Both the position numbers and the translations under genes were made by a program. From an uncultured Bacteroidales bacterium (lineage in GTDB: Bacteria; Bacteroidota; Bacteroidia; Bacteroidales; Paludibacteraceae), in assembly GCA_902769535.1 (NCBI GenBank), contig CACXPH010000001.1, forward strand, positions 1 through 64,000: 64,000 nt of DNA. The letters run 5' to 3'. A model generated the notes under the pieces. It did no database searches and was not told the origin of the DNA. It saw nothing but the letters and a program-made list of their open reading frames with translations. Positions 13,562 to 52,646 of the stretch are shown here, one piece after another (the stretch's first letter is position 1; every line of letters begins with the position of its first letter).

Positions 13562-13589
13562 AATTGTTAATATTTTAAACATTATTTTA

Positions 13590-13673
13590 GTGATTTTTTA
13601 AAATCACGGGATAATATACATAGTATATTATAGGGTGTGGTGGGATACGATATACCTAGGACATACCTAGGAC
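13590..13673 (-). repeat. 11-bp direct repeat plus AT-hairpin element, copy 1
   Basis: Relative to the M16 gene (leftward) the order is: two exact 11-bp repeats (ATACCTAGGAC at 13652-13662 and 13663-13673), a spacer with GATACGATATA-like sequence, hairpin ATAATATAC-ATA-GTATATTAT (13611-13631), then a second stem GTGATTTT-TT-AAAATCAC (13590-13607). A near-identical copy in the same polarity precedes the gene at 27970. It lies within the gap between tdh and the M16 gene. Confidence 0.85.
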
Positions 13674-13685
13674 TCATCTATCTCT

Positions 13686-14711
13686 TTACCACTCCAGGAG
13701 CACCTTACCGCATTGTCCGCTGACCATAACATCGAAGCCTTTCTGGAAGTCCTCGAACTTGAAGCGGTGGGTGATGACAGGGCTGAGATCGAGTCCGCCA
13801 AGGAGCATCTGCTCCATCTGATACCATGTCTCCCACATGCGTCGGCCGGTGATACCTTTGATCGTCAGGGCATTGAAGATAACGTCAGACCAGTTGACTT
13901 GCGTGTCGGATGGCAGGATACCCAGTTGGGCGATGTTCGCACCTTTGTACATATGCTCAATCATATCGTTAAAGGCGGCAGGTGCACCGGACATCTCGAG
14001 TCCCACATCGAAGCCTTTGATTCCGAGTTGCTGCATTGCACCTTCAACGGTCTCTCCTTTGGATCCATCGACGGTAAGCGTTGCACCCATCTTCTTTGCT
14101 ATCTCGAGACGCAGCGGGTTGATATCCGTCACCACTATATGCTTGGCTCCGGCATAGCGGCATATACCTGCAGCCATCGTTCCGATGAGTCCTGCGCCGG
14201 TGATGAGTACATCTTCGCCTAGCAGCGGGAAAGCGAGGGCTGTGTGTGTGGCGTTGCCGAACGGATCCATGATCGCCGCGAAGTCATCGGGAATCTCCGG
14301 ACGGAGTTTCACAACGTTCGTCTCAGGGATCGTGACGTACTCGGCAAAACAACCGTCCTTGCCCATGATACCGACAGAAATCGTATTCTCGCAGACATGT
14401 CCCATGCCTCGACGGCAATTACGGCAGTGTCCGCAAACGATATGTCCTTCGGCCGTGACGCGCTCGCCGGCTTTGAAGTTACGCACACCTGCGCCTACTT
14501 CGGCTACGACGCCTACGAACTCATGGCCCATCGTATAAGGCGGTTTGCAATGCGCTTGCGACCATGCGTCCCATTTATACATATGCAGGTCGGTACCGCA
14601 GATAGCAGCCTTGGTGACTTTGATGAGCACATCGTTCACCCCCACTTCCGGCATCGGAACATCTTCCATCCAGATACCCGGTTCGGCATATTTCTTAACT
14701 AATGCTTTCAT
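13686..14711 (-). CDS. tdh: L-threonine 3-dehydrogenase
   Basis: 341 residues, a zinc-dependent medium-chain dehydrogenase. Catalytic zinc ligands are Cys38 (AAICGTDLHMYKWD) and the GHE at His63-Glu64. The structural zinc loop is CGHCRNCRRGMGHVC. The NAD-binding turn is GAGLIGTMAAG. The ICGTDxHxYxWD context is that of Tdh rather than other alcohol dehydrogenases. It oxidises threonine to 2-amino-3-ketobutyrate, which the product of the gene just upstream (kbl, 3-base gap) cleaves to glycine and acetyl-CoA. Pathway and order are strong mutual support. Confidence 0.97.
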   Translation of the reverse strand: MKALVKKYAEPGIWMEDVPMPEVGVNDVLIKVTKAAICGTDLHMYKWDAWSQAHCKPPYTMGHEFVGVVAEVGAGVRNFKAGERVTAEGHIVCGHCRNCRRGMGHVCENTISVGIMGKDGCFAEYVTIPETNVVKLRPEIPDDFAAIMDPFGNATHTALAFPLLGEDVLITGAGLIGTMAAGICRYAGAKHIVVTDINPLRLEIAKKMGATLTVDGSKGETVEGAMQQLGIKGFDVGLEMSGAPAAFNDMIEHMYKGANIAQLGILPSDTQVNWSDVIFNALTIKGITGRRMWETWYQMEQMLLGGLDLSPVITHRFKFEDFQKGFDVMVSGQCGKVLLEW

Positions 14712-14714
14712 ATT

Positions 14715-15905
14715 TTATTTCAATACAGCAAGTTCTGTGCCAATCTTGGTAAAGGCCGCGATACACTTGTCTAATTGTTCGCGTGTGTGCGCCGCAGAAA
14801 CCTGCACGCGGATACGTGCCTGACCCTTCGGAACCACCGGATAATAGAAGCCAGTGACATAGATACCTTCTTTCTGTAGCGCCGCCGCGAACTCTTGGCT
14901 GAGACGTGCGTCGTACAACATGACAGCACAGATAGCGGACTGCGTCGGTTTGATATCGAAACCAGCCGCTTTCATCTTCTCTACGAAGTAAGCGGTGTTC
15001 TCGTGCAGACGGTCTTGCAGTTCGTTCGAACGCGTGAGGATCTCGAAGGTCTTGATACCCGCCGCAGCGATCATCGGCGGGATAGAGTTCGAGAAGAGAT
15101 ACGGACGCGAGCGTTGACGAAGGAGATTGATAATCTCTTTCTTTCCGGTAGTGAAACCACCTACCGAACCGCCGAAGGCTTTACCGAGCGTACCGGTGAT
15201 GATCTCGATCTTGCCGCGCATGTTATACAGTTCAGTGACACCGTGTCCGGTCTTGCCGACCACGCCGGCTGAGTGGCTCTCGTCCACCATGACCATGGCG
15301 TTGTATTTCTGCGCAAGTTCGTAGATCTTGTCCAACGGGCACACATTACCGTCCATCGAGAAGACACCGTCCGTCGCGATAATACGGAAACGTTGTGCCT
15401 GCGCCTCTTTGAGTTTGGCCTCGAGATCGGCCATGTCGCCGTTCGCATAGCGATAGCGCACCGCCTTACACAGACGTACACCGTCGATGATCGAGGCATG
15501 GTTGAGTGCATCGGAGATGATCGCATCCTCTTCCGTCAACAGCGGTTCAAACAAACCACCGTTCGCATCGAAACAAGCGGCATAGAGGATCGTGTCTTCG
15601 GTACCGAAGAAATCCGAGATGACACGTTCCAACTCTTTGTGGGTATCCTGCGTACCGCAGATGAAACGCACGGAAGCCATACCGTAGCCACGCGCATCCA
15701 TGCGCGCCTTAGCTGCCTCGATCAGTTCTTTGTTGTCCGCCAAGCCGAGGTAGTTATTGGCACAGAAGTTAATCACCTCCTGCCCTCCTTCCACCGCGAT
15801 ACCTGACGACTGCGGCGTGATAATCACACGTTCGTTCTTATAGAGTCCTGCCTCCTTGATCTCCGCCAAGGTATTCTGCAGATGTTTCTGAAAATCGGTA
15901 TACAT
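14715..15905 (-). CDS. kbl: 2-amino-3-ketobutyrate CoA ligase (glycine C-acetyltransferase)
   Basis: 396 residues, a PLP enzyme of the alpha-oxoamine synthase family. It has NFCANNYLGLADN near the N-terminus, DESHSAGVVGKTGHG for the PLP ring Asp/His, and the Schiff-base lysine in ITGTLGKAFGGSVGG. It lies 3 bases before tdh and forms the threonine-to-glycine pathway with it. Alternatives in the family (7-keto-8-aminopelargonate synthase, 5-aminolevulinate synthase) are less likely given the partner gene. Just upstream of the start lies copy 2 of the GC-rich palindromic repeat. Confidence 0.97.
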   Translation of the reverse strand: MYTDFQKHLQNTLAEIKEAGLYKNERVIITPQSSGIAVEGGQEVINFCANNYLGLADNKELIEAAKARMDARGYGMASVRFICGTQDTHKELERVISDFFGTEDTILYAACFDANGGLFEPLLTEEDAIISDALNHASIIDGVRLCKAVRYRYANGDMADLEAKLKEAQAQRFRIIATDGVFSMDGNVCPLDKIYELAQKYNAMVMVDESHSAGVVGKTGHGVTELYNMRGKIEIITGTLGKAFGGSVGGFTTGKKEIINLLRQRSRPYLFSNSIPPMIAAAGIKTFEILTRSNELQDRLHENTAYFVEKMKAAGFDIKPTQSAICAVMLYDARLSQEFAAALQKEGIYVTGFYYPVVPKGQARIRVQVSAAHTREQLDKCIAAFTKIGTELAVLK

Positions 15906-15913
15906 AATATAAA

Positions 15914-15952
15914 GCCTACTCCCGACCCCTCCCTAAAAGGAGGGGAGGAGGA
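15914..15952. repeat. GC-rich palindromic repeat, copy 2
   Basis: It contains CCCCTCCCTAAAAGGAGGGG preceded by GCCTACTCCCGA. It lies in the gap between gdhA and kbl. The perfect CCCCTCC...GGAGGGG arms could fold in RNA and might dampen read-through from gdhA. Confidence 0.85.
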
Positions 15953-15960
15953 TTTTTGTT

Positions 15961-17304
15961 TTAGATAATTCCTTGCTCCAACATGGCCGTTGCCACTTTC
16001 ATAAAGCCGGCGATGTTTGCGCCTTTAACGTAGTCCACCGTGCCATCGGGTTGGGTTCCGTAACGAACGCATTGCTCGTGGATGGACTCCATAATATGAT
16101 GCAGACGCTCGTCTACTTCCTTACCCGTCCAGCTGAGGTGCTCTGCGTTCTGGGTCATCTCAAGACCGGAGGTTGCTACACCACCTGCATTAACAGCCTT
16201 ACCGGGCGCGAAGAACACACCGTTTTTCTGGAAGAAATGAATAGCACCCGGTTGGCATCCCATATTCGATACCTCGCAGCAGCACCAGCAGCCATTAGCC
16301 TTCAGTTCCTTTGCATCGTCCTCAGACAACTCATTCTGGAAGGCACACGGCAGTGCGATGTCGCAAGGAATAGACCACGCTTTCTTACCTGCTGTAAAGA
16401 CGCAGTCCTTCGGGAACTTATCCGCCATATCTTGCACCTTATTACGGTTCGACGCACGCATGACGAGCATGTAATCGATCATCTCTTTGGTAATACCGTT
16501 CGGGATGGCCACTACGCCGTCCGGACCGGAGATAGCCACGACCTTAGCGCCTAACTCGACCGCCTTCGTCGCTGCACCCCAAGCTACGTTACCGAAACCG
16601 GAGATAGCCACTTTCTTGCCTTGAATATCCTTTCCAGCCTTATGCAGCAGGTGTTGGGTAAAATAGAGTGCACCGAAGCCGGTAGCCTCCGGACGGAGGA
16701 TCGAACCACCCCATGTCATGCCCTTGCCCGTCAGCACACCTGTATGGTACTCGCGTGCGAGCTTCTGGTACATACCGTTGAGGAAACCGATCTCACGACC
16801 GCCTACGCCTACGTCACCTGCCGGAATATCCTGATCCGGACCGATGCAACGCCAGAGTTCCAGCATGAAGGCCTGGCAGAAACGCATGATTTCCGCATCG
16901 CTCTTGCCGACCGGATCAAAGTCCGAACCGCCCTTTGCACCTCCCATCGGAAGGGTTGTCAGCGCATTCTTAAAGGTCTGCTCGAAGCCCAAGAACTTGA
17001 GCATAGACGGCGTTACGGCGCGGTGGAAACGAAGACCACCCTTGTACGGGCCAATCGCACTGTTGAACTGCACACGGTAACCGAGGTTGGTCTGTACCTC
17101 ACCTTGGTCATCGATCCACGTCACGCGGAACGTAAAGATACGATCGGGCTCTACCATTCGCTCGACAATCTTCGCCTGCTCGAATTCAGGGTGTTGATTG
17201 TACACCTCTTCAATCGATTCGAGAACTTCTTGAACGGCCTGCAGATACTCTGCCTCGCCCGGATGCTTCGCAGCCAACTGCTGCATAATAGTTTGTACTT
17301 TCAT
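15961..17304 (-). CDS. gdhA: NADP-type glutamate dehydrogenase
   Basis: 447 residues from the ATG at 17304. The upstream in-frame ATG would extend into the promoter leader. The glutamate dehydrogenase signature with the catalytic lysine is in LPMGGAKGGSDFDP, with GYRVQFNSAIGPYKGGLRFH upstream. The Rossmann half carries ISGFGNVAWGAA. The length and hexameric-type sequence match bacterial GdhA, which forms glutamate from 2-oxoglutarate and ammonia in the cytosol. It has its own promoter about 55 bases upstream. The kbl-tdh pair lies downstream in the same direction after a GC-rich repeat. Confidence 0.97.
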   Translation of the reverse strand: MKVQTIMQQLAAKHPGEAEYLQAVQEVLESIEEVYNQHPEFEQAKIVERMVEPDRIFTFRVTWIDDQGEVQTNLGYRVQFNSAIGPYKGGLRFHRAVTPSMLKFLGFEQTFKNALTTLPMGGAKGGSDFDPVGKSDAEIMRFCQAFMLELWRCIGPDQDIPAGDVGVGGREIGFLNGMYQKLAREYHTGVLTGKGMTWGGSILRPEATGFGALYFTQHLLHKAGKDIQGKKVAISGFGNVAWGAATKAVELGAKVVAISGPDGVVAIPNGITKEMIDYMLVMRASNRNKVQDMADKFPKDCVFTAGKKAWSIPCDIALPCAFQNELSEDDAKELKANGCWCCCEVSNMGCQPGAIHFFQKNGVFFAPGKAVNAGGVATSGLEMTQNAEHLSWTGKEVDERLHHIMESIHEQCVRYGTQPDGTVDYVKGANIAGFMKVATAMLEQGII

Positions 17305-17359
17305 TGTTTTATGTGTTTTGGTATTTGTGTTAAATGTGTTTTGCAAACCTTTGCGACTG

Positions 17360-17391
17360 CAAAGGTACTCAAAAAAAATGACATATGCAAG
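17360..17391 (-). promoter_or_regulatory. gdhA promoter
   Basis: -7 box TACCTTTG (17360-17367), 20-base spacer, -33 box CTTG (17388-17391), reading leftward. The -33 lies in the loop of the terminator of the upstream receptor gene, as at the dnaK/TonB receptor junction. Confidence 0.78.
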
Positions 17392-17409
17392 AGCTATGTC
17401 ACTTTTTTT
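17371..17409 (-). terminator. Terminator after the outer-membrane receptor gene
   Basis: Inverted repeat TGACATA / TATGTCA with flanking A and T runs (stem extended by A-T pairs). It lies 22 bases past the stop of the receptor gene and overlaps the gdhA promoter. Confidence 0.72.
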
Positions 17410-17430
17410 ATAAAAAAGAAAACTTTTTTA

Positions 17431-19911
17431 TTAATTACCGGCTGACACACCACCACCGCCACCGAGACGGTTCAACTCGTCCATGTCGCCTACTTTACGG
17501 TTCTTATGCTGCTGATACTGGCCAAACATCCATGTGAGCGCGAACATTACACGCTGCTGACGAACAGTATTACGATACCTACTCTCATAGCCTCCCTTTT
17601 GGCCTCTATCCGTATTCTCAAATGACAGCGAACGCGCTAAGTCTTGCACGGTAAGGTTGAAGATAAGGCCCTTCTTCATGTACATCTTCCGGATGCCGAA
17701 ACTGAGGAAATACGTGCTTCCGCTGGTGTTATAGCCGGTTGTCATCGGACTGGACCAGTTGCCATCAAACGTCATGGTCCAATCTTTGGGCAAATACGCG
17801 GACAGCGTACCACCGACATAGCCATAGTGGTTTCTGTTCTCATAAACCGGTGTTCCATCAGCCTGTTTCTCGTAGGATTTATTGATGAAATGCAACCAAC
17901 CGGCATTGACTGTCAAGGCGAGCCAGGCACCTTGCATAGATTTCGTACCGTCTTCTGCCCTCACATACTTCGGCACGATAGGCAGTTCGGTAAGCGATAT
18001 GTTTCCGCCGTGAGTAGTGCACGTACCGAAATTGATCCACTGTGAATACCCCATACCATTTTCCTCAATCGTCGTTTTCGAGGAGAACATATCCTGCGTG
18101 TGTGCGAAATTAAAGGTGACATTCAAATACTGCGTCCATGAGAAATGGAGTTCCACATCGTTATTAAACTCAGGGGTCAGTTCCGTATTACCTTTCTGAT
18201 AACTGTACGCATCCACGTAGGTCTTGAACGGGTTCATCATCCAGTAACTCGGTCGTTTGATACGACGGGTATAACTGGCACTGACGGAGATGGGTTGCTG
18301 CAGTTTACCCAGCGGCGAAGAGGTATATCCCACATAAGCCGTCGGGAAGGGATCAAAATAGGACTTGTTTGTCACCGAATCGGATGTCTTCCAATCGCCG
18401 TGGCTATACGTATATTCGCCGCGCAGGCCGAGTTTAACCGACCAGTGTTCTCCGAACTGCTTACCAACACTGATATAAGCCGCAGCCACATGCTCGTCAT
18501 AACGGAAGGCACTGGTGTCGGTCGGGACACCAACCTGGTTAACGGTAGAGTCCGTGAACATATTATTATTCGTTGTAGATAGACCATATTTGACACCGCA
18601 CTCAATCATACCGGTCTGCCAGAACTTAGTCTGAAAGTCCAACTTCGCGCTATAGATATCCACTATTTGACGACTGTTGATATTCAAAGCAAGTTGGGAA
18701 TTCCCCATATAAGGTTTGTCATAGCGCGTCTCCTGATAATTCGTTTGCTTGTTGTTATAGCGGTTGTAGTCCACATTCACTGTTATTTCGCGTTCGAGCG
18801 CTTCGGAGAACGTGTGCGTATAGTTGAGGTTCGCCGTGTGTTGGGGCGCTTGAAGGCGGTTCTGCGACTCGGTCGTACTGTTGATCGAATCTGTCGGACT
18901 GTATATATACGCGTAGTTACGGCCGGGCATGATCTGCTGGTTGACATCCATGTATGGCACCTGCAGGATAAAACCGAGCGTATTGACCGAGTCGATATAC
19001 CAGTCGTTGCCGACCTTGAGCATGTAATACTGAAAATTCATGTTGTAGCCCGAGTAGGAGTAGTTCTCCAAGGTCTTGGTCTTGCGGTAGGACTCAAAAT
19101 CGATATCATTCTGTGCAAAGACTTGCGTCAATTGGCAGAAGGTATAGGTTTTCTCGCTGCGGTAATTGAGATTGAGCGAGACCATATCCATCTGCAGCCA
19201 GCGCTTCACGTCGCCAAAGTACATGCCTCCATAACCTGCAGAGAGCATACCGTTGAGACCCTTCATCATGTTGCGCTTGGTCTTGATATTGATGATACCG
19301 CCTTGTCCGCTCGCGTCGTATTTAGCGGAAGGATTGGAGATGATCTCGATCTTCTCAATGGTGTTTCCGTCCGTGCCATCCAGCATGGCTTTGAGTTGCT
19401 GGCCGCTGAGGTAAGACGGTTTGCCATCCACCCAAATCTCGACGGACTTACCGTTCACGGTGATATTTCCGTCCTTATCGATACGCACACCCGGTGCACG
19501 ACGAAGGATGTCGTTTCCGTTTGAACCGGCCGCCAGCGGCGAAGCACTCACGTTTAGCACGAGTTTGTCCATCTGCCGCTCAATAAGCGGTTTCTTGGCT
19601 TTAACCTCCAATTCCTTGAGTTGCTCCGTCTCTTCGCGCAACACGAAGTCCGGTCCGCCAAAGGCCGTCTGATAGCCAACATAGGAAGCCTGAAGGATAA
19701 AATCCTTCGTCGTCACTTCCACAACATAGGAGCCGTCGTCATTCGTGATAGCACCTGTGATGAGCGACGAGTCCTGCGCTAAAACAGAGATCGTCACGAA
19801 CGGCATCGGTTCTCCTTTTGAGTCGATAACACTTCCCCTTACGGTCTCTGCTGAAACCGGTAAAATTGCCAGTACTGCTAAAAGGATACCTAAAAAGAAT
19901 ATTCTTTTCAT
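17431..19911 (-). CDS. TonB-receptor-like outer-membrane beta-barrel protein
   Basis: 826 residues from ATG 19911 (MKRIFFLGILLAVLAILPVSA signal peptide); ATGs at 19920 and 19932 are also possible. A carboxypeptidase-regulatory-like domain covers about 24-110 (GSVIDSKGEPMPFVTISV), then a plug-like region (NDILRRAPGVRIDKDGNITV, IEIISNPSAKYDASGQGGII), then a barrel. It fits the 'outer membrane beta-barrel' receptor family that lacks a clear TonB box. The C-terminus is Gly-rich (LGGGGGVSAGN) instead of ending in Phe, which is odd for a barrel. An AraC-type regulator gene lies just upstream, and the promoter has a -7 but no -33 box, so activator control is plausible. Confidence 0.82.
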   Translation of the reverse strand: MKRIFFLGILLAVLAILPVSAETVRGSVIDSKGEPMPFVTISVLAQDSSLITGAITNDDGSYVVEVTTKDFILQASYVGYQTAFGGPDFVLREETEQLKELEVKAKKPLIERQMDKLVLNVSASPLAAGSNGNDILRRAPGVRIDKDGNITVNGKSVEIWVDGKPSYLSGQQLKAMLDGTDGNTIEKIEIISNPSAKYDASGQGGIINIKTKRNMMKGLNGMLSAGYGGMYFGDVKRWLQMDMVSLNLNYRSEKTYTFCQLTQVFAQNDIDFESYRKTKTLENYSYSGYNMNFQYYMLKVGNDWYIDSVNTLGFILQVPYMDVNQQIMPGRNYAYIYSPTDSINSTTESQNRLQAPQHTANLNYTHTFSEALEREITVNVDYNRYNNKQTNYQETRYDKPYMGNSQLALNINSRQIVDIYSAKLDFQTKFWQTGMIECGVKYGLSTTNNNMFTDSTVNQVGVPTDTSAFRYDEHVAAAYISVGKQFGEHWSVKLGLRGEYTYSHGDWKTSDSVTNKSYFDPFPTAYVGYTSSPLGKLQQPISVSASYTRRIKRPSYWMMNPFKTYVDAYSYQKGNTELTPEFNNDVELHFSWTQYLNVTFNFAHTQDMFSSKTTIEENGMGYSQWINFGTCTTHGGNISLTELPIVPKYVRAEDGTKSMQGAWLALTVNAGWLHFINKSYEKQADGTPVYENRNHYGYVGGTLSAYLPKDWTMTFDGNWSSPMTTGYNTSGSTYFLSFGIRKMYMKKGLIFNLTVQDLARSLSFENTDRGQKGGYESRYRNTVRQQRVMFALTWMFGQYQQHKNRKVGDMDELNRLGGGGGVSAGN

Positions 19912-19950
19912 TTTTGTCATATATTTATCCATTAATTTCAAAATCCGGTG

Positions 19951-19958
19951 CAAAAGTA
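19951..19958 (-). promoter_or_regulatory. -7 box of receptor promoter, no -33 box seen
   Basis: TACTTTTG on the minus strand, within the AAAAAGCAGTACTTTTG run shared with the rRNA and leucine-rich repeat promoters. The position for a -33 box (about 19979) reads atat, with no TTTG. The AraC gene ends about 50 bases upstream. Confidence 0.6.
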
Positions 19959-20006
19959 CTGCTTTTTGCGAATATGGGATATGAAAAAACGGACATTTGC
20001 TATTTT

Positions 20007-20867
20007 TTATGCAAAAAAGACGGAAAAATCTGCTGTTAACGGGATACCTAACATGCGGAAATGGCTCGGAGAGACGCATCCCATCTGCTGAAACTCCATC
20101 GCCATATGGCTTAAGTCATAATAACCGTGCTGCAGAGCCACTTGCATCAGATCGATGGTTTTGCCTGCCGCTGTCTGCTGCTGCATGTACTGAATAGCCT
20201 TATGAAAACGCTGCAGACGGATGAATTGTTTAGGCGGAATACCGACATAATTACGGAAGATACGCAGGAACTGCCGTTCGCCAAGGCAAGCCACGGATGC
20301 CATCTGCGCAGCCGATATATTGCCTCTCGCCCCGTCGCAAGCCGCTATCACTTTGCGCAAGCGCGTATAATTAATGTCCTCTTTATGCGGCAGATGACCA
20401 AGAAAGAATGCATCGATCAGGCGCGTCACCTCATCCGGTTGTTCCGTTTGTTTGAAGAGCCTGTCCAACTGCAGCAAGCCTTGGTCTCCGTATTCCTTCG
20501 CTGTCAGCACCTTACCGGCCAACTGCTGCAGATCGATACCTAACAGCGCATACATGCCTCCCGGTTCAAAATCCAGCAGCATACCGTCGAACCAGCCGCT
20601 GACAGTAGTCAAAGCGATCGTCCTCTGATTCGCGCCCAAAAGAGTCAATCCGTCGGAAGGAACATCTTCGATATCAGTAAGCACATTCCGCATGAACACA
20701 AAACTACCGTAATTAGGCAGCAGTTCCTGCACATGCTTACCGTTCACAAAACGCGGATCATTCTCCGGAGGCGCCATTGTATCCGTTGAACCTTCTGCGC
20801 GGACGCACACATAACGCGTTATATAAGGTCTAAGCGCTTCGGTAGGCTGTATGATACGAAAAATCAT
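20007..20867 (-). CDS. AraC-family transcriptional regulator
   Basis: 286 residues. The C-terminal 100 residues form the double helix-turn-helix of AraC proteins: ISAAQMASVACLGERQFLRIFRNY, then PPKQFIRLQRFHKAI and DLMQVALQHGYYDLSHM. The N-terminal about 170 residues are a cupin-like sensor of the DUF6597 kind (PYITRYVCV at the start). The gene overlaps the sensor kinase gene by 4 bases (ATGA), so it is translated from the same message. That pairing of a kinase with an AraC protein lacking a receiver domain is unusual. The gene just downstream is a receptor with an activator-type promoter, a likely target (inference). Confidence 0.9.
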   Translation of the reverse strand: MIFRIIQPTEALRPYITRYVCVRAEGSTDTMAPPENDPRFVNGKHVQELLPNYGSFVFMRNVLTDIEDVPSDGLTLLGANQRTIALTTVSGWFDGMLLDFEPGGMYALLGIDLQQLAGKVLTAKEYGDQGLLQLDRLFKQTEQPDEVTRLIDAFFLGHLPHKEDINYTRLRKVIAACDGARGNISAAQMASVACLGERQFLRIFRNYVGIPPKQFIRLQRFHKAIQYMQQQTAAGKTIDLMQVALQHGYYDLSHMAMEFQQMGCVSPSHFRMLGIPLTADFSVFFA

Positions 20868-22855
20868 GACTTTCCCTTCTTGAAATAGATGAAGAACGTC
20901 GTACCCTTCGGCGAGGTCTCGAACTGGATTCGTCCGCCTGATCCTTCTACGATATGTTTGGAGATAGCCAGACCCAGACCGTTTCCGTTGGACTTGGTCG
21001 TGAAATTCGGCTGGAAGATACGCGCCTGTATATCCTCCGGGATACCTGTACCGTCGTCCGAAATGGAAATCTGCACTTCCTTATCGGAATACGCTGCGTT
21101 GAGCACGACGATGATATCGGTCGGCGAGGCCTGCAGGGCATTGCGGATGATATTGACGAACACCTGCGCCACCTGTTCATTGTCCGCACGCACCATCACG
21201 CCGGAGTCCTCGCCTATATAGCGCACAGGGATCTGCTCGTCGTTGGCGCGCTGAAGCGTGATGACGTTCGACAGTTTCTCAGCAATATCCACTTCGGTCG
21301 TCACCACTTCCGGCTGTTTGGCAAAGGCCGAGAACGACTGCGCGATATGCGCGAGGTTGTCTATCTCCGCCACGAGCATTTTGGTGGTCTTATCAAAATA
21401 GGCATCAAAATCCGGTGTACCACGCTTGAGTTGCAGTTTCTGTACGGACAACTTCATCGGCGTCAAAGGATTATTGATCTCATGCGCTATCTGGCGCGCC
21501 ATCGTGCGCCATGCGCCTTCACGTTCGGCACGCGCTAACTGTTCTGCGCTCTCCTCTACCCGATCGACCAAGATGTTATAGCGCTCCACCAACGCACCTA
21601 ACTCATCGTGGTACGGGTAGTCAATATGATTGTCGCGACCACCAATCTCGAACTGCCGCATCTTATCGGTGAGCATCATGATCGGCGCAGTCATCGAGCG
21701 GGCCGCCAAGAACGAGAACAGCAAGGCCAACAGCAGCACCAGGATATACGGTGGCAAGAGGCGCGCCAGCAGTCTATCCACCGCCGCATTACGCGTCTGC
21801 TCGCTCACGAAATACGGCACGGCGATATATCCGATCGTCACAAACGAACCATTGTGGAAAGGTATATACGACACCAGATACGGATGCGAACCGATATACT
21901 CATAGCACACCGCCGTGTGGTCTTCGTTAAAGATCGCCTTGGGTGCCATGCGACGCGAGAGCACGCCGTTGTTGAACAGCGCCGGTGAAGAGGACGCCAA
22001 CAGCTCGCCGTTCAAGCCATAGACGTGTATATCTTGGTTCATGTCATAGCCTAAATCATGCAAATCGACCGACAAGGCCTGTTCCTGTGCAGACGTCAAC
22101 GCTACGTCCCAATAATAGAGCGAGCGCAGATACGACTGGATATACTCCGAGCGCATCTGCAAGTCATGCCGTTGGTGCTGCTCGTTCGTACGATGCACAT
22201 AGCGGATCGACATAAAGAAGATATAGATGAACACCGCGAGTACAGGCGCGAGGATGATATAGGTGATTCGCGTGGACAGGTGCATGTTACGGATGCCCTT
22301 GTTGCGTATCAGACCGATGATGCCCAACAAGATGACCAAGCCGAACAGCACGTGGCACAAGAAGAAATAGAAGCGCGACGAAGCGTAAGGTTTGTCGTTC
22401 GACTCCAACAACCGTCGGAAAGAGAAAGTCTGCGAAGCCACGGTTGATATATCCGTGAAATCCTGCAGTTCGGTATAAGCCACGGGAACGACCGTTAGCA
22501 CATTATAGATACCCGCCTTCGTCCAACGCACTTTTGTCTGCGCGTTGCTGAAAGTCTGGTCACGCCAGGTATCGTAAGCCGTCAGGTAGATCGCGTCCGA
22601 AGCCAGACGATTCGATGACCAATAAACCATCTGCCGCGCATCGAACACATAAAAAAGCACATCCTCATTGCGCTCAGCAATCAGACGTATCGTATCCATG
22701 GAAGCACTCTTATTCAGCGCCTCGCACAACTCCGCCGTCTGCTTCTCAGCCAACACCTGCCGCTCCGACAACTTCCGTTCCTGCGAAGACGACTGACACG
22801 CCGGCAACAGCCAAACAGTCAATAAGATTACTATGTATCTTCCAATTTTTCGCAT
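20864..22855 (-). CDS. Membrane sensor histidine kinase, NtrY-like
   Basis: 663 residues. The N-terminus ends in LPAC (Cys20), a possible lipobox, which is odd for a kinase. Membrane helices are at about 162-183, 197-217 and 366-386, with an extracytoplasmic sensor region between the last two (residues about 220-365). Then come HAMP (about 386-440), HisKA with His458 in RQIAHEINNPLTPMKLS, and the ATPase domain with NALQASPTD, DDGTGIP and NGNGLGLAISK. The HEINNPLTPMK box is NtrY-like. No response regulator gene is nearby; the next gene, overlapping by 4 bases, is an AraC-type regulator. It has its own promoter, shared back-to-back with the divergent transporter gene. Confidence 0.9.
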   Translation of the reverse strand: MRKIGRYIVILLTVWLLPACQSSSQERKLSERQVLAEKQTAELCEALNKSASMDTIRLIAERNEDVLFYVFDARQMVYWSSNRLASDAIYLTAYDTWRDQTFSNAQTKVRWTKAGIYNVLTVVPVAYTELQDFTDISTVASQTFSFRRLLESNDKPYASSRFYFFLCHVLFGLVILLGIIGLIRNKGIRNMHLSTRITYIILAPVLAVFIYIFFMSIRYVHRTNEQHQRHDLQMRSEYIQSYLRSLYYWDVALTSAQEQALSVDLHDLGYDMNQDIHVYGLNGELLASSSPALFNNGVLSRRMAPKAIFNEDHTAVCYEYIGSHPYLVSYIPFHNGSFVTIGYIAVPYFVSEQTRNAAVDRLLARLLPPYILVLLLALLFSFLAARSMTAPIMMLTDKMRQFEIGGRDNHIDYPYHDELGALVERYNILVDRVEESAEQLARAEREGAWRTMARQIAHEINNPLTPMKLSVQKLQLKRGTPDFDAYFDKTTKMLVAEIDNLAHIAQSFSAFAKQPEVVTTEVDIAEKLSNVITLQRANDEQIPVRYIGEDSGVMVRADNEQVAQVFVNIIRNALQASPTDIIVVLNAAYSDKEVQISISDDGTGIPEDIQARIFQPNFTTKSNGNGLGLAISKHIVEGSGGRIQFETSPKGTTFFIYFKKGKS

Positions 22856-22863
22856 AGCGACTG

Positions 22864-22895
22864 CAAAATTACAAAATTATTTTGATATATGCAAA
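22864..22895 (-). promoter_or_regulatory. Sensor kinase promoter (divergent)
   Basis: -7 box TAATTTTG (22864-22871), 20-base spacer, -33 box TTTG (22892-22895), reading leftward. It interleaves with the rightward promoter at 22881-22911. The -7 box lies only 9 bases from the start codon at 22855, so the message would have almost no leader. Confidence 0.75.
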
Positions 22896-22911
22896 CTTTT
22901 TTGTACCTTTG
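22881..22911 (+). promoter_or_regulatory. Transporter-trmN6 promoter (divergent)
   Basis: -33 box TTTG (22881-22884), 19-base spacer, -7 box TACCTTTG (22904-22911), reading rightward. Its -33 region overlaps the spacer of the leftward kinase promoter, so the two cannot be occupied freely at the same time. Confidence 0.82.
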
Positions 22912-22937
22912 CACCCGTTTTTCGAAAAGTAGAGAAG

Positions 22938-23666
22938 ATGGTACAGATTTTTACCGCGTTATTATTAGGTTTATTGACAATTTTAGACCCGTGTACGCTG
23001 ATGACGAGTATTACCGCCATCGGTTATATCGATAAGGAGATCAACAACAAACGGCTCGTCATCACGAACGGCCTTATGTTCGTGTTAGGTAAGTTAGCCA
23101 CGTATATATTGCTGAGTATCCCGTTCCTTATGGGTGCGCAGACAGACGGCATCCAGCACGTGCTCGGCCATTACGGCGAACCGATCCTCGCGGGCTTCAT
23201 GCTCATCTGCGGCATCGTGCTGCTCTTCAGCGGCCATCACCACCACGAGCACGACCACGGCATCAGTAAATGGCTCAAAGAGACCGACAGCAAGGAGAGT
23301 TGGCTTTGGTCCTTCATCCTCGGTATCTTCTTTGCGATTGCCTTCTGCCCGCACCGCCTCGTCTATTTCCTGACGATGATCGATATCACCCTGACGCTGC
23401 CAAGCTCTTGGAACTGGCTCATGCCGGTAGTCTTCGGTCTCGGAACAGGTCTGCCTATTATGCTGATTGCGTGGCTGGTAAGTTACAGTGCGGTGAGCAT
23501 CGGCAAGTTAACCAGCAAGTTAACCTCTTTCGAGAAATGGTTCCGGCGCATCTGTGCGGTACTCTTCTTGATACTGGGCATCTATCTAACCGTTCATTGC
23601 ATCATCGAGTACCACGAGCACGAACACGGTTGTTGCGACCATCATCACTATGAGCTTCCGCTTTAA
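22938..23666 (+). CDS. TauE/UreH-like membrane transporter with His-rich loops
   Basis: 242 residues from the ATG at 22938. The longer frame starts inside the promoter and is rejected. About six membrane helices are visible (for example MVQIFTALLLGLLTILDPC, GFMLICGIVLLFSG). A His-rich loop HHHHEHDHG follows the third helix, and the C-terminus is HEHEHGCCDHHHYELPL. The DPCTLMTSI and FCPHRLVYF motifs resemble the sulfite exporter TauE / UreH / cytochrome biogenesis CcdA-like group. The His-rich parts suggest a metal substrate such as nickel or zinc (inference). It overlaps trmN6 by 17 bases. Confidence 0.72.
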   Translation: MVQIFTALLLGLLTILDPCTLMTSITAIGYIDKEINNKRLVITNGLMFVLGKLATYILLSIPFLMGAQTDGIQHVLGHYGEPILAGFMLICGIVLLFSGHHHHEHDHGISKWLKETDSKESWLWSFILGIFFAIAFCPHRLVYFLTMIDITLTLPSSWNWLMPVVFGLGTGLPIMLIAWLVSYSAVSIGKLTSKLTSFEKWFRRICAVLFLILGIYLTVHCIIEYHEHEHGCCDHHHYELPL

Positions 23667-24342
23667 GCAGTTTTTTATCGAGGACAGTAAATGCGCCATG
23701 AAAGTAGGCACGGACGGTGTCCTGCTTGGCGCGTGGGTGCCGATTCCATACACCATACACCATACACCACACACCATTCTCGATATCGGAACCGGCAGCG
23801 GACTCATCGCACGGATGTTGATGCAGCGTTGTCCGGATGCAGAGGTAGAAGGCATTGATATCGACGCAGCGGCAGTAGAACAAGCCAAAGAGAATGGCGT
23901 CAAGGCTTCTTGCGTTAAACTGCAAGATTGGCAAGGCACGTACGATCTCATCGTATCTAACCCGCCCTATTTTCAAAACAGTCTCAAGAATCCCGATAAA
24001 GGTCGGCAGACTGCGCGTCACACGGACACACTCTCGTACGAAGAACTCATTGTGCATAGTGCACGGTTGCTTAACGAGGACGGCCAGTTAGCTATCATTC
24101 TTCCTGCCGAAGCCGAAGCTGAGGTACGTCGTCTCGCCGCCGTACAGAACCTCTTCCTCACGCATCTCACGCGCGTATATAGTAAGGAGACAAAGCCGGC
24201 ACGACGCGTGATGATGGCTTTCGAGATCACGAGATCACGTGATCACGTGGTCACGACAAAAACTGACACCCTCATCTTAGAGGACGAAAAAGGCGGCCGT
24301 TCAGCCGCCTATTCGGAACTCTGCAAGGAATTCTACTTATAA
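23650..24342 (+). CDS. trmN6: tRNA1(Val) (adenine37-N6)-methyltransferase
   Basis: 230 residues, a class I SAM methyltransferase. The SAM loop is ILDIGTGSGLIA and the N6-adenine motif is SNPPYF. The N-terminal FRFKQFFIEDSKCAMKVGTDGVLLGAW is characteristic of the YfiC/TrmN6 family, which modifies A37 of tRNA-Val. Two short arrays are translated in frame: IPYTIHHTPHT, between the GTDGVLLGAW and SAM motifs, and EITRSRDHVVTTK near the C-terminus. Both sit at loop positions between conserved blocks. The rny terminator hairpin is embedded in the last 60 bases. It overlaps the upstream transporter gene. Confidence 0.9.
   Translation: MSFRFKQFFIEDSKCAMKVGTDGVLLGAWVPIPYTIHHTPHTILDIGTGSGLIARMLMQRCPDAEVEGIDIDAAAVEQAKENGVKASCVKLQDWQGTYDLIVSNPPYFQNSLKNPDKGRQTARHTDTLSYEELIVHSARLLNEDGQLAIILPAEAEAEVRRLAAVQNLFLTHLTRVYSKETKPARRVMMAFEITRSRDHVVTTKTDTLILEDEKGGRSAAYSELCKEFYL
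23746..23778. repeat. In-frame tandem array CCATACA(C) in trmN6
   Basis: Four quasi-copies of the 8-base unit CCATACAC/CCACACAC, translated as PYTIHHTPHT. Confidence 0.85.
24223..24255. repeat. In-frame tandem array GATCACG(T/A) in trmN6
   Basis: Four quasi-copies of GAGATCAC/GTGATCAC, translated as EITRSRDHVVT. The same unit makes up the intergenic array at 40751-40785. Confidence 0.85.
24285..24311 (-). terminator. Terminator of the rny operon inside trmN6
   Basis: Stem AGGCGGC / GCCGCCT followed on the minus strand by a T run. It lies about 35 bases past the rny stop, but within the coding end of the convergent trmN6 gene. Confidence 0.75.
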
Positions 24343-24345
24343 TCG

Positions 24346-25878
24346 TTATTTCGCCACGTTCACTGCGCGCACCTCGCGGATGACAGTCACCTTGATCTGT
24401 CCCGGATACGTCATCTCGTCCTGGATACGTTTCGCCAGATCGAACGAGAGCAGTTCGGTATCCTTGTCGGAGATCTTGTCCGCACCTACGATAACACGCA
24501 GTTCACGACCTGCCTGGAGTGCGTAAGTCTTGACCACTCCCGGGAAACTCATAGCGAGGTTCTCGAGGTCGTTCAGACGCTTCACATAACTCTCCACGAT
24601 CTCACGACGGGCACCAGGACGGGCACCTGAGATAGCGTCACACGCCTGCACGATAGGCGCAATGAGCGTCTTCATCTCGCACTCGTCATGGTGCGCTCCG
24701 ACAGCATTGCAGATATCCGGTTTCTCGCCGTATTTCTCGCACAACTTCATACCGAGCTCTGCGTGCGGCAGTTCGACATCATCGTCTGCCACCTTACCGA
24801 TATCATGCAACAGACCGGCACGCTTAGCCGCCTTCACGCTCAAGCCCAGTTCGCCTGCCATAGCAGCACAGAGGTTCGCGGTCTCACGGCTGTGTTGCAA
24901 CAGGTTCTGACCATAGGACGAACGGTATTTCATCTTACCCACCAAACGAATCAGTTCCGGATGCAGACCGTGGATACCAAGGTCGATCGTCGTACGCTTA
25001 CCGGTCTCGACGATCTCTTCCTCAACCTGCTTGGTCACTTTGGCCACCACTTCTTCGATACGAGCCGGATGGATACGTCCGTCTTGAACGAGTTGATGCA
25101 GCGCCAAACGTGCTATCTCACGGCGAACCGGATCGAAAGCCGACAAGGTGATAGCCTCCGGTGTATCGTCCACGACGATCTCCACGCCGGTAGCGGCTTC
25201 TAACGCACGGATATTACGTCCTTCGCGACCGATAATACGACCTTTGACTTCGTCATTCTCAATATGGAAGACCGAAACGGTACTCTCGGCAGCGGTCTCA
25301 GACGCCACACGTTGAATGGTCTGGATAATGATTTTCTTCGCCTCTTTGTTAGCCTCCAGACGCGCATTGTCCATGATCTCGTTGATATAACTCATGGCTG
25401 CTGTCTTGGCCTCATCCTTGAGGGCTTCCACTAGTTGTTTCTTCGCTTCCTCAGCCGACATACCACTCAATTGTTCGAGTTGTTTCTCAGCCTGCAGATG
25501 CATCTTCTCGATCTCCTGCTGACGGTAGTCCAACGCCTGTTGACGCTGTTCTACGGCCTGCGTTTTTTGATTCACTTCATTGAGGCTGCGTTGCACCTCT
25601 CCCTGACGCTGGTTGAGCTGTTGCTCGCGTTGCTGCAAGCGTTGTTCCTGCTGCTGCAAGCGTTTGTCTTGCTCACGCACACTATTGTCGTGCTCCAACT
25701 TCAGGGCGATGAATTTCTCTTTAGCCTCAACAATCTTGTTTTTCTTCACCACTTCCGCCTCTTCGGTAGCCTTCTGGATAATTCCGGCACCGATCAACTT
25801 CGCGATGAGGTAGTAGCCGCCAACTCCCACCAGGAGTCCGCCTGCTACACTAATCACAATTAGGATTGCTGTGTTCAT
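24346..25878 (-). CDS. rny: Ribonuclease Y
   Basis: 510 residues from the ATG at 25878, which opens the membrane anchor ([21 protein letters not shown]). The longer open frame runs into zapA. Order: N-terminal membrane helix, long Gln/Glu/Arg-rich coiled coil ([17 protein letters not shown]), KH domain ([17 protein letters not shown]) and HD domain ([10 protein letters not shown]). This is the standard RNase Y layout and length; the enzyme is a membrane-tethered endoribonuclease that starts mRNA decay. It overlaps zapA by 4 bases. The only nearby terminator lies in the convergent trmN6 gene. Confidence 0.97.
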
Positions 25879-26168
25879 TTTGTTAATTTTTCTGTTATTA
25901 ATTGATTTAGCTCTTTGAGCTCTTTCTCTACGGGTGCGATACTCTTCGCACGGGCGTCCGACTGCAAGGCCACTGCAATCTCCAGCGCCGTGTACATCCA
26001 CAACTGTTCAGCCGATGCGTTCGGACGCAGTTTCAAATAATACTGATAGCGTTTATTGAGCAACTCTGCCGCAAACCGATAGTTCGGTTCTTGGTCACGC
26101 GGCACATCCAGACCCACCGTGTGGGCATCCAAATGCAAATTAATATGTTGCTTATCGCTTAAGGGCAT
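25875..26168 (-). CDS. zapA: Cell division protein ZapA
   Basis: 97 residues. It matches ZapA in size and form: an N-terminal beta region ([26 protein letters not shown], with the Pro-Asp/Glu turn) and a C-terminal coiled coil ([16 protein letters not shown]). ZapA binds FtsZ and bundles protofilaments at the division ring. It overlaps the coiled-coil gene upstream by 17 bases and rny downstream by 4 bases. This zapA-rny order is common in Bacteroidota. Confidence 0.85.
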
Positions 26169-26430
26169 TGATTGCTCGATCGATTTGCGCTATCAGCGCG
26201 TTTAGACGCTTCGTTGCTTCTTCGCTATTCTCCGCCGTATTCATGGCATTCACCACAGCGATACGACGATTCTTCTGCTGCAACTCCTGCAACTCGCTAT
26301 GCGTACGAATCAGTTCTTGACGCTGCTTCTCGATATCTTCCTTCAGACGCGCGTTCTCCTGCTGCAACGCCTCATAGCGTTCCAGTAAGTCACGCACATT
26401 TTGCGAAAGATCGTCGAGTACCTGCATCAA
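26152..26430 (-). CDS. Coiled-coil protein upstream of zapA (ZapB-like?)
   Basis: 92 residues, nearly all heptad-repeat coiled coil (ALQQENARLKEDIEKQRQEL). No signal or membrane segment. Its place directly before zapA with a 17-base overlap points to a partner role in the division ring, similar to ZapB, but I see no diagnostic motif. The start (MMQVLDD) could be either of two adjacent ATG codons. A TTGAAAT-type array lies right upstream. Confidence 0.7.
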   Translation of the reverse strand: MMQVLDDLSQNVRDLLERYEALQQENARLKEDIEKQRQELIRTHSELQELQQKNRRIAVVNAMNTAENSEEATKRLNALIAQIDRAINALKR

Positions 26431-26460
26431 ATTTGAAATCTTAAATCTAAAATCTCAAAT
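26431..26460. repeat. Short tandem array AAATCTNA between two genes
   Basis: Four quasi-repeats of AAATCTTA/AAATCTCA fill nearly the whole gap between the DUF3078 stop and the start of the coiled-coil gene. Confidence 0.75.
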
Positions 26461-26465
26461 GTTCG

Positions 26466-27629
26466 TTAGAACGAGTATCCTACGCCCAGACCGATTACAC
26501 CCTTGAACTGAACGCGTTCAGCCATCTCCGGCGTACCTTTCACTTCTTTCTCGATCAAGGTACCAGGATAGTATTTCAGGCTTGTCTGGAGGGTTACCTG
26601 CAGACATTTGAGGAACTGATAGCTCAGCGCACAATCCCAGTCTACATCAAACATACCGAAGAAACGGTTCTTATTCGAATACTCGAAGTAGTCCACATCT
26701 TTATTACGGGTCTCCCAAGAACCTGCTCCGTGATCCTTCTCATAGATATCCTTTAGGCTGAAGCCCTTACCCTGATACGGAGTAAACAGCGCCAAGGTGG
26801 TGCTCAGTTTCAGGTCTTTGTAGGTATAAGCGATACCGCCCTTGAAACTCAAACCGAACTCAGCACGCGCGTTGCGGTACTCTTTCGTACCATCATTCAG
26901 ATAGCGGTACGTACCGATGTTGCTCTGCAGCACTTCGCGCAAGTCATAATAGGTCTCTCCGGGGTGTGCATCCAGATATTCCTGGCTATATTTGTTATTC
27001 CATTTATCGCCGATATACGCCGTCGTGATACGACCTGCTACCGGAGACAGATAAATTGAGAAGTCTGCACCGTTGTAGCTCTTCTTCCAGTCAATACCGA
27101 CCGAGATATCGGTGTACGAAGGAGCCAGCCACTTGGAGATAATCGGGTTATAACCCGTCTCATAACTGCGGCCTAACGCATACTGGCTCTGGAACGAACC
27201 TAATACCGTCAGATACCAAGACTCCTTAAACTCCCAACCAAACTTGGTCGCCAACTTGATATTATCACTTGACTTCTGGAATGCATCCTCGTCCTGGTCA
27301 ATCCATGTCAGACCGAAATCGGTGTCGAAGTTTGTCTCCCAAGCAATAGCGTCCTTATGATAGAGCAAGTGTAACTTGGCATACACAATACCGTTGACGT
27401 TATTCTTACCACCGGCAGCCCAGTTTACAAGGCCCGTAGCTGCTGCATTCAGACCTACCGTTCCGTCGAACTTCCAAGCCTTCTCGCCTGCCTCGAGTTT
27501 CTTGAGATCCGCACCAGCTTTCGCAGCCGCGTCGGCATTACCCGTCACTTTCGCTTTATCCACCTCTTGAGCAGTCATGGTTAGCGCCGCAAATAGGCAA
27601 AGCGCTACAGATAAAATAGATTTTTTCAT
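26466..27629 (-). CDS. DUF3078 outer-membrane protein
   Basis: 387 residues from the ATG at 27629 (MKKSILSVALCLFAALTMTAQ signal peptide). The frame upstream crosses the promoter and is rejected. The mature part begins with an Ala/Lys-rich stretch and then beta strands with GLNAAATGLVNWAAGGKNNVN, characteristic of DUF3078, ending in VIGLGVGYSF with a terminal Phe as in barrels. It is likely an outer-membrane barrel of unknown function. It has a strong promoter of its own. Confidence 0.82.
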   Translation of the reverse strand: MKKSILSVALCLFAALTMTAQEVDKAKVTGNADAAAKAGADLKKLEAGEKAWKFDGTVGLNAAATGLVNWAAGGKNNVNGIVYAKLHLLYHKDAIAWETNFDTDFGLTWIDQDEDAFQKSSDNIKLATKFGWEFKESWYLTVLGSFQSQYALGRSYETGYNPIISKWLAPSYTDISVGIDWKKSYNGADFSIYLSPVAGRITTAYIGDKWNNKYSQEYLDAHPGETYYDLREVLQSNIGTYRYLNDGTKEYRNARAEFGLSFKGGIAYTYKDLKLSTTLALFTPYQGKGFSLKDIYEKDHGAGSWETRNKDVDYFEYSNKNRFFGMFDVDWDCALSYQFLKCLQVTLQTSLKYYPGTLIEKEVKGTPEMAERVQFKGVIGLGVGYSF

Positions 27630-27684
27630 CGTATTCAAAAATTGTTTGTTATACATTATTTGTTCGGTTTTACAAAAAACCGCA

Positions 27685-27716
27685 CAAAGGTACAAAAAAA
27701 ATCTCACATATGCAAA
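27685..27716 (-). promoter_or_regulatory. Promoter of the DUF3078 gene
   Basis: -7 box TACCTTTG (27685-27692), 20-base spacer, -33 box TTTG (27713-27716) extended to TTTGCATATGTGAG, reading leftward. Confidence 0.87.
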
Positions 27717-27809
27717 TTATTTAGGTACGCGCGCGACTTTTTTATACAAAAGTGTCAATTTTTACACATTTTTTTGGAATATGTGCACAATTAATTGAAA
27801 AAAAAGTAG

Positions 27810-27817
27810 TAATTTTG
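27810..27817 (+). promoter_or_regulatory. Possible -7 box for the 1203-residue protein gene
   Basis: TAATTTTG on the plus strand, with no TTTG at the expected -33 distance. If used, the message would carry a leader of about 150 bases that contains the repeat-hairpin element at 27867-27932. Apart from these signals, the 27630-27969 gap holds nothing I recognise. Confidence 0.45.
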
Positions 27818-27866
27818 CAGCGTGAATTAATATCGGGTAATGCGGGCCTACTTGAGTGATCGTACT

Positions 27867-27932
27867 TATGTCCTATGTATGTCCTATGTATATCGTATCC
27901 CACCCAACCCTATAATATACAAAGTATATTAT
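27867..27932 (+). repeat. 11-bp direct repeat plus AT-hairpin element, copy 2
   Basis: Two exact 11-bp repeats TATGTCCTATG (27867-27877, 27878-27888), a shared spacer (ATCGTATCCCACC), then hairpin ATAATATAC-AAA-GTATATTAT (27912-27932) and CCCGTGATTTTA. Apart from small changes in the repeats and loop it matches copy 1 near 13600, in the same polarity toward the downstream gene. Confidence 0.87.
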
Positions 27933-27969
27933 CCCGTGATTTTAGAAAATAACGAACAAAACATCCAAT

Positions 27970-52436: not shown

Positions 52437-52494
52437 TGTTTGGTGCAAAAAGTACTAATATCCTCCTAAAAACCTATCAATTACCTATGCGTTC

Positions 52495-52592
52495 CCAATG
52501 ATCGCCCAATGATCGCCCAAGGATCACCCAAGGATGAATTGATTTTTTTGACAAAAGTGTGCTTTATATGTATATATACATAGTATATATAC
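52495..52592 (+). repeat. 11-bp direct repeat plus AT-hairpin element, copy 3 (variant)
   Basis: Four 11-bp units: CCAATGATCGC twice exactly (52495-52516), CCAAGGATCAC and CCAAGGATGAA (52517-52538). Then hairpin GTATATATAC-ATA-GTATATATAC (52570-52592). Same layout and polarity toward the next gene (ruvA) as copies 1 and 2, but with a different repeat word. Confidence 0.75.
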
Positions 52593-52614
52593 AGTTTTTG
52601 TGATAAATTTTAAA

Positions 52615-52646
52615 TTTGCATATGTCATTTTTTTGTTGTACCTTTG
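52615..52646 (+). promoter_or_regulatory. ruvA promoter
   Basis: -33 box TTTG (52615-52618) extended to TTTGCATATGTC, 20-base spacer, -7 box TACCTTTG (52639-52646), reading rightward, 32 bases before the ruvA ATG. Confidence 0.88.

Follow-up and report, generated by a model that had tools for sequence, protein, structure and literature searches.

BrickBuilt, a miniature inverted-repeat transposable element (MITE) of Porphyromonas gingivalis, occupies 19 intergenic sites in one strain (10,276 bases in total) and consists of 23-nt repeats, with terminal inverted repeats nearest to those of ISPg1 and ISPg9 (PMC4596501). Repetitive extragenic palindromic (REP) sequences carry a GTAG/GTGG tag at the foot of a hairpin whose stem is mostly GC rich, and they usually exceed 100 copies (PMC2817692, PMC6006769). 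Within open-license PubMed Central (PMC) text, no description of the element reported here was recognized, and the BrickBuilt and REP papers came nearest. That element, which we call family A, was found in a 64,000-nt window (positions 1 to 64,000 of contig CACXPH010000001.1, assembly GCA_902769535.1) from an uncultured Bacteroidales bacterium of the family Paludibacteraceae. Family A is a dispersed, noncoding intergenic repeat that has so far been detected in one Paludibacteraceae genus. It is approximately 100 bp long, and its layout comprises approximately 2 to 7 units of 11 bp, followed by the anchor CGTATCCCACC, a perfect AT hairpin, and the tail CCCGTGATTTTGAAA.

Two copies lie in the window. 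The leftward copy (13599..13673, minus strand), between a Tdh-like gene (13686-14711, minus strand) and an M16 peptidase gene, contains two units of GTCCTAGGTAT (13663-13673 and 13652-13662, i.e., 13652..13673), the conserved anchor ATATCGTATCCCACC (13639..13653), the perfect palindrome ATAATATAC-TAT-GTATATTAT (13611..13631), and the conserved right end CCCGTGATTTTA (13599..13610), all on the minus strand. The rightward copy (27867..27950, plus strand) lies between a -7-like box, TAATTTTG (27810-27817, identified by eye), and the gene for a 1,203-residue protein (27970-31581, plus strand). Its parts, all on the plus strand, are two units of GTCCTATGTAT (27870-27880 and 27881-27891, i.e., 27870..27891), the same anchor ATATCGTATCCCACC (27890..27904), the palindrome ATAATATAC-AAA-GTATATTAT (27912..27932), and the right end CCCGTGATTTTA (27933..27944). 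The repeats, spacer, palindrome, and right end that a first-pass annotation of this DNA had reported at the two sites were thus confirmed at both positions; of the two loops that it gave, AAA was correct, and ATA reads TAT in the element's own orientation. In a search of the own genome, the copies were 92% identical over 75 bp (E = 2.3e-25), and the exact palindrome pattern occurred at five sites in the 1.89-Mb genome, every one inside a family A element, with no site for the reversed pattern. The likeness of the two copies is therefore not due to chance.

Searches yielded 141 matches, representing 134 distinct copies after removal of 7 duplicates; a later set of 44 loci contributed 33 new copies (11 were already counted), for a total of 167. 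A covariance model of the core (R1) was built on 46 of the 134 copies. The anchor and tail columns mostly carried 1.4 to 2 bits, and the bases directly before the hairpin were looser. Perfect arms of at least 8 bp were present in 166 of the 167 copies, the exception (L133) being cut off on the left; L159, counted among the 166, has the usual arms, but its score came from a longer palindrome that overlaps them and includes an inverted piece to the right. That inverted piece of the right end lies just past the element; in L091 the right end is tandemly repeated, and L093, L094, and L097, from one genome, have approximately 100 further bases in common upstream of their arrays, where a very small reading frame (ATGCCGAAAATCC) may lie. 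A second right-end stem, GTGATTTT-AR-AAAATCAC, noticed in the 13.6-kb copy, was discarded, its full 8-bp form being found in only 3 of 163 copies.

Two arm types with a 3-nt loop predominated, ATATATAC (104/167) and ATAATATAC (45/167), with matching sequences on both sides. ATATAC/GTATAT was retained in 162 copies, and in 155 of these the arms were separated by a 3-nt spacer. The ends of all five spacers longer than 3 nt can pair, so a small loop remains in those copies, and one of the two 2-nt spacers is self-complementary. Among the 46 aligned copies, 358 of 358 pair cells were standard; eight of nine pairs were invariant in letter, and in three copies the ninth was altered at both of its positions. 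The short arm type lacks two of the pairs, which have letters in only 18 copies; between the two arm types, both sides change together. Because pair letters almost never vary, the support for palindromy comes from matched insertions and deletions more than from base changes. As a folded single DNA strand the hairpin reached -4.0 to -4.8 kcal/mol (z, -2.0 to -2.8); RNA folds of the two window copies gave -5.0 and -7.6 kcal/mol (z, -1.6 and -2.2).

The own genome contained 27 matches, of which 11 included the hairpin core (L005-L015) and the rest were an array or a hairpin alone. The core model recovered all 11 of these copies and was positive in 50 of 121 genomes of the genus, with 1 to 22 copies each. 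A draw of 150 genomes from the family gave three matches, all in this genus, and none in the 32 other genera drawn, with filters that lose weak matches at this family-wide scale. A pattern scan of the collection returned at least 117 stretches; among the matches listed (80), all were from Paludibacteraceae or Bacteroidales metagenome-assembled genomes (MAGs), and many MAG titles among them refer to the ruminant gut. Several elements were seen 75 to 300 bases from contig ends (G002:C10, G001:C12, G233:C20, own C26, and others), and assemblies probably broke there at the repeats. The exact core pattern had no match in viral contigs, and blastn (E value, 0.1) had none in phage records, plasmids being outside the search; a phage or viral origin was rejected on these grounds.

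Comparison of orthologous spacers revealed empty, reversed, and decayed sites, and family A therefore behaves like an insertion. The tdh gene was present in all 16 genomes of the genus searched, the own genome included (16/25 genomes overall). Inspection by eye identified a tdh-then-M16 spacer without the element in nine of them (G001, G002, G003, G004, G005, G009, G010, G013, and G014) and something else at that place in the others; over 18 tdh loci, the core profile matched the own locus alone. An element with other array words occupies the same tdh-M16 place in a MAG locus (L143). At gmd-fcl, the core profile was applied to 32 loci (the best 30 by match plus L152 and L099), where it detected one antisense element and three sense elements, the latter including two from close relatives. 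In other gmd-fcl loci the genes overlapped or nearly did so, several loci had an 11-bp array alone, and L257 appeared by eye to retain a core that had lost the hairpin center. Among the best 30 dapB-lepB loci, the element was found in four, including the own locus, always in one direction, and the others were empty or held other inserts.

The arrays are phased at 11 bp. In 61 copies, lag-11 identity, taken block by block (11 bp each) away from the anchor, was 0.58, 0.57, 0.45, 0.41, and 0.33, compared with 0.20 to 0.30 at lags of 8 to 10 and 12 to 14; the signal faded to background across approximately 55 bp left of the anchor as units drifted along the array. The exact agreement of unit copies within an element, which had been read from the two window copies, thus holds for those two but not generally. 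Across the fetched loci, where period-11 arrays of unrelated words also occur, lag 11 gave 53 runs, lag 10 gave 2, and lag 13 gave 0; other lags were occupied as well (68 runs at lag 7, 20 at lag 14, 16 at lag 8, and 11 at lag 16). Of 46 distinct lag-11 runs, 29 lay outside family A elements. Short-unit intergenic runs (e.g., GTTGAAA or CACCTTT) were seen in L243 and L246 (tdh spacer) and in L299, L306, and L322 (dapB-lepB spacer).

Arrays also stand alone in the own genome, where CTATGT at 11-bp spacing (up to three mismatches) had 60 pattern matches versus 6 for the reversed pattern. By our own count these matches represent 30 places, three of which are hairpin elements. The remaining 27 array-only places (L016-L023 and L365-L383) often have a common left end (CCTAATCGTATG/GGTGATCGTATG) and right ends of several kinds (CTTATCAGAA, GCTATTAGACTCTAA, or CGTGTCGTCAATT). 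One of them, L020, follows apparently the same gene end as a hairpin element in another genome (L063 in G002).

The array word tends to behave as a dialect of the genome. Mean best-unit identity was 0.624 within genomes (326 pairs), 0.532 between orthologous loci (29 pairs), and 0.478 otherwise (8,556 pairs), and none of 1,000 label shuffles reached the observed within-genome value. Units were closer to those of their own genome than to the ortholog in 47 of 59 paired comparisons (Wilcoxon P = 1.6e-6, an optimistic value because the comparisons have members in common) and closer to the own than to another genome in 44 of 48. Three dapB-lepB loci (L109, L296, and L297) have in common a long locus-specific palindrome, which we take as a sign of descent, and their words differ; L109 carries the exact CCTATGTATAT of the 27.9-kb copy. 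Some groups ran counter to the trend (e.g., L059/L101 and L082/L141). As judged from the words themselves, arrays are thus more alike inside one genome than between genomes, even where the hairpin appears to be inherited. The proposal that the two repeats of an element evolve in concert not only held but extended further, words being common to different loci of one genome.

Family A also showed a strand tendency. With the coding effect removed, the GC skew on the element strand had an intercept of -0.030 ± 0.0044 and was negative for 97 of 134 copies (P = 2e-7); the skew at 4-fold sites was -0.086 beside codirectional genes and -0.060 beside opposite genes. Pooling all 167 copies, the sign was negative for 118. 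Over longer stretches of G002, as read from a table, the direction of the copies followed the local skew in seven of eight cases. The 4-fold-site GC skew of G002 contigs C1, C3, C10, and C13 (L283-L294) flips sign every 10 to 40 kb, apparently an unusual pattern for a two-replichore bacterial chromosome. We assumed the C-rich strand to be the lagging strand. A strict replication polarity was discarded, as neighboring copies at distances of 14 to 50 kb, both in the window and in G002, are often opposite, though for most of the eight G002 copies read over longer stretches the local skew flips along with them.

We lean toward the interpretation that family A is a nonautonomous mobile intergenic repeat, probably mobilized in trans. 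A trans-acting recombinase or transposase would recognize the core of anchor, hairpin, and tail, probably as a folded single strand, since palindromy survives matched insertions and deletions and since the ends of spacers of more than 3 nt can pair. The phased array may be a multisite, iteron-like docking region for protein, and the modest tendency toward the C-rich strand would be consistent with entry at replication. Once inserted, an element could lose its hairpin and its array would decay; gene conversion or fresh copying may then make the arrays of a genome alike again.

As in a MITE, family A copies are dispersed, intergenic, and present or absent between relatives; a classical MITE was nevertheless rejected, as neither terminal inverted repeats nor duplications were detected. 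Mobilization of the IS200/IS605 or REP-associated tyrosine transposase (RAYT) type was likewise set aside, the own genome having no Y1 transposase and the core no REP tag. The Y1_Tnp family (PF01797) had no match in the own genome, which is 85% complete and was the only genome of the genus searched, and matched 5 of 14 control genomes. The hairpin and the modest strand bias are the only reasons for which a single-strand route is still considered.

Several results weigh against mobility. Among 161 copies, inverted 6- to 8-mers between the flanks and direct 5- to 8-mers, the latter as signs of target-site duplication, were not above the level of shuffled pairs, although the array has no sharp left boundary, and short terminal repeats or duplications could escape such a comparison. 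An autonomous partner was not found in the own genome, where the search covered the Y1_Tnp family and a full-length relative was not sought. The strand bias was weaker in the 33 new copies (-0.018 ± 0.009; negative in 21 of 33, P = 0.16), and array-only loci of the own genome had none (negative in 12 of 23, from 27 loci after omission of 4 with poorly matching words). Sites at secA, uvrB, gyrB, infC, nqrA, and dapB-lepB are common to several species; movement is therefore not fast, or some copies are kept. To these is added the position of a second group of hairpins, family B, which is more what would be expected of a protein-binding site than of a transposon end.

Family B is represented in the window by an element at 52480..52620 (plus strand), which consists of an 11-bp array (CCCAATGATCG / CCCAAGGATCA), a spacer, the palindrome TATATAC-ATA-GTATATA (52573-52589, plus strand), TACAGTTTTTGTG, and a promoter-like box. 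The promoter-like sequence TTTGCATATG..TACCTTTG begins at 52615 on the plus strand, 42 bp past the hairpin start and ahead of a gene judged RuvA-like by eye from its translation. In the own genome, TATATAC-NNN-GTATATA had 14 sites and no reversed site; 3 were in family A, and 11 were outside it (the window copy and L386-L395). Ten of these 11 have CCCAAGGATCA-type arrays, L389 having other words; nine of the ten arrays have a common spacer and a TACAGTTTTTGT-like tail, and L387 lacks the tail on the same side. TTTGC starts exactly 42 bp past the hairpin start in 7 of the 11 copies, with CTTGC there in L394. Across the 121 genomes of the genus, the offset of TTTGCA peaked at 42 bp (26 of 96 matches), with a lesser peak at 35 to 36 bp (15 matches); the 96 matches come from 38 genomes, include a few family A cores, and count two sites twice. 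The promoter consensus is given as TAnnTTTG at -7 and TTTG near -33 (PMC7366714). The position of the hairpin is evidence that, in one setting at least, its role is structural or lies in binding a protein.

A less likely explanation is that the elements form a network of sites for a chromosome-structuring or regulatory protein. Units and palindrome would both be bound, by one protein or by two, arrays would follow as the specificity of the protein drifts, and selection would keep or regain copies. Such a network would fit the 42-bp distance between the family B hairpin and the promoter box, the presence of one word, in the own genome, in hairpin elements as well as at array-only loci, the closeness of units to their own rather than another genome (44/48), and the orthologous sites common to species. 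It is harder to reconcile with the empty orthologous spacers, which are common at the three surveyed sites, with the absence of a fixed distance between family A and promoters or genes, and with the exceptions to 3-nt spacing, which preserve pairing and not spacing. More tentatively, both families might belong to one genus-level system, in which a single factor recognizes TATATAC-NNN-GTATATA beside phased 11-bp arrays in at least two settings: at promoters in family B, where the hairpin precedes the -33 box by 42 bp, and in free intergenic elements in family A. The word would then be a genome-wide dialect, rewritten in concert by template copying or by following a fast-changing binding protein; such rewriting is suggested because the word changes between species while hairpins are inherited.

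It is improbable that the elements are neutral debris, i.e., slippage duplications beside an old, inactive hairpin repeat, with words alike within a genome through common descent. The drift of units along arrays, the gain or loss of a whole unit between close species (L105 versus L152), and the array-only spacers of many genomes would be expected of debris. However, most anchor and tail columns stay near 2 bits, and all but one of the 167 copies have a perfect palindrome; words differ between L109, L296, and L297 despite their common locus-specific long palindrome; and runs at lag 11 (53) outnumber those at lags 10 (2) and 13 (0), though lag 7 has 68.

Neighboring genes were assigned with a simple codon-scored gene caller. 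Within the window, Pfam matches identified the M16 peptidase, the Tdh-like protein (zinc alcohol dehydrogenase family), and a DUF3078 protein; the 1,203-residue protein had only a subthreshold cadherin-like Pfam match. The first-pass annotation had linked the elements to envelope and secreted protein genes, a link that does not hold generally: NCBIfam matches among 10 neighboring proteins were to UvrB, GyrB, SecA, IF-3, Gmd, signal peptidase I, uridine kinase, and YchF, with Fcl (slightly) and a DapB-like protein below the cutoff. Pfam added NqrA, an ABC transporter, a lactate/malate dehydrogenase, ribosomal protein L19, and further proteins, with no match for two of the eight compared. Nearness to an ATGAGAAA start, as seen at the M16 peptidase gene (ATGAGAAA at 13561, minus strand; longest frame from 13582), is not a family trait, as gene distances spread widely.

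Of 116 copies with both flanking genes assigned (of 134, 18 having one side missing), 39 were in the ++ arrangement, 30 were --, 34 were -+, and 13 were +-. Codirectional cases had no preferred direction (P = 0.34), and divergent spacers outnumbered convergent ones (34 versus 13, P = 0.003). The right-hand gene pointed away from the hairpin in 78 of 124 cases (P = 0.005), and of the 46 right-hand genes pointing at the element, 21 ended within 10 bp of its right end. Random placement relative to genes, which had been named in advance as a sign against regulation, is thus nearly what was found, without a fully neutral orientation. Promoter-like motifs to the left of the 167 copies numbered 33 reading into the array, mostly 40 to 125 bp off, and 45 reading away from the element; no fixed promoter distance was found for family A. 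A regulatory leader, i.e., a 5' untranslated region in which array and hairpin act as RNA of the downstream gene, is very unlikely and was rejected despite the 33 inward-reading motifs and the folding of the RNA strand (-5.0 and -7.6 kcal/mol), given the lack of a preferred codirectional orientation (++, 39; --, 30), the antisense copy between gmd and fcl, the element-free sites, the unrelated neighbors, the 45 outward-reading motifs, and the absence of any Rfam match in window positions 13400-28300 up to an E value of 1. Of the two roles first proposed, leader or mobile element, the former thus fell to the occurrence of all four gene arrangements, the empty orthologous sites, and the reversed copy, and an insertion-type element remains.

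To the bacterial intergenic repeats already known, family A adds one with two unusual features, phased 11-bp arrays whose concerted evolution is particular to each genome and a perfect hairpin preserved by matched changes. Should a binding protein or recombinase come to light, the arrays would be a natural record of specificity change over dozens of species. Copies near contig ends or gene starts could mislead annotation or pass for promoters.

Among known systems, BrickBuilt resembles family A in its occurrence in Bacteroidales, its intergenic location, its array of direct repeats between fixed ends, its narrow host range, and a repeat number that varies between strains. Family A is set apart from it by description, having 11-bp units, one internal AT hairpin, a shorter length, and no detected terminal inverted repeats. 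REP sequences and bacterial interspersed mosaic elements with their RAYT (TnpA-REP) are likewise intergenic palindromic repeats with many copies per genome and a hairpin as the conserved core, whereas family A has an AT stem, no tag in the 46 aligned cores, 1 to 22 copies, and an 11-bp array. In the double-strand origin of pMV158-type rolling-circle plasmids, 11-bp direct repeats lie beside a hairpin, as they do in family A; family A, however, is chromosomal and dispersed, and its variable loop leaves no conserved nick site there. The DNA uptake sequences of Neisseriaceae are short words whose genome-wide version differs by species, and the word of family A also tends to be genome specific, but it is set in phased tandem arrays at tens of loci rather than in thousands of single words.

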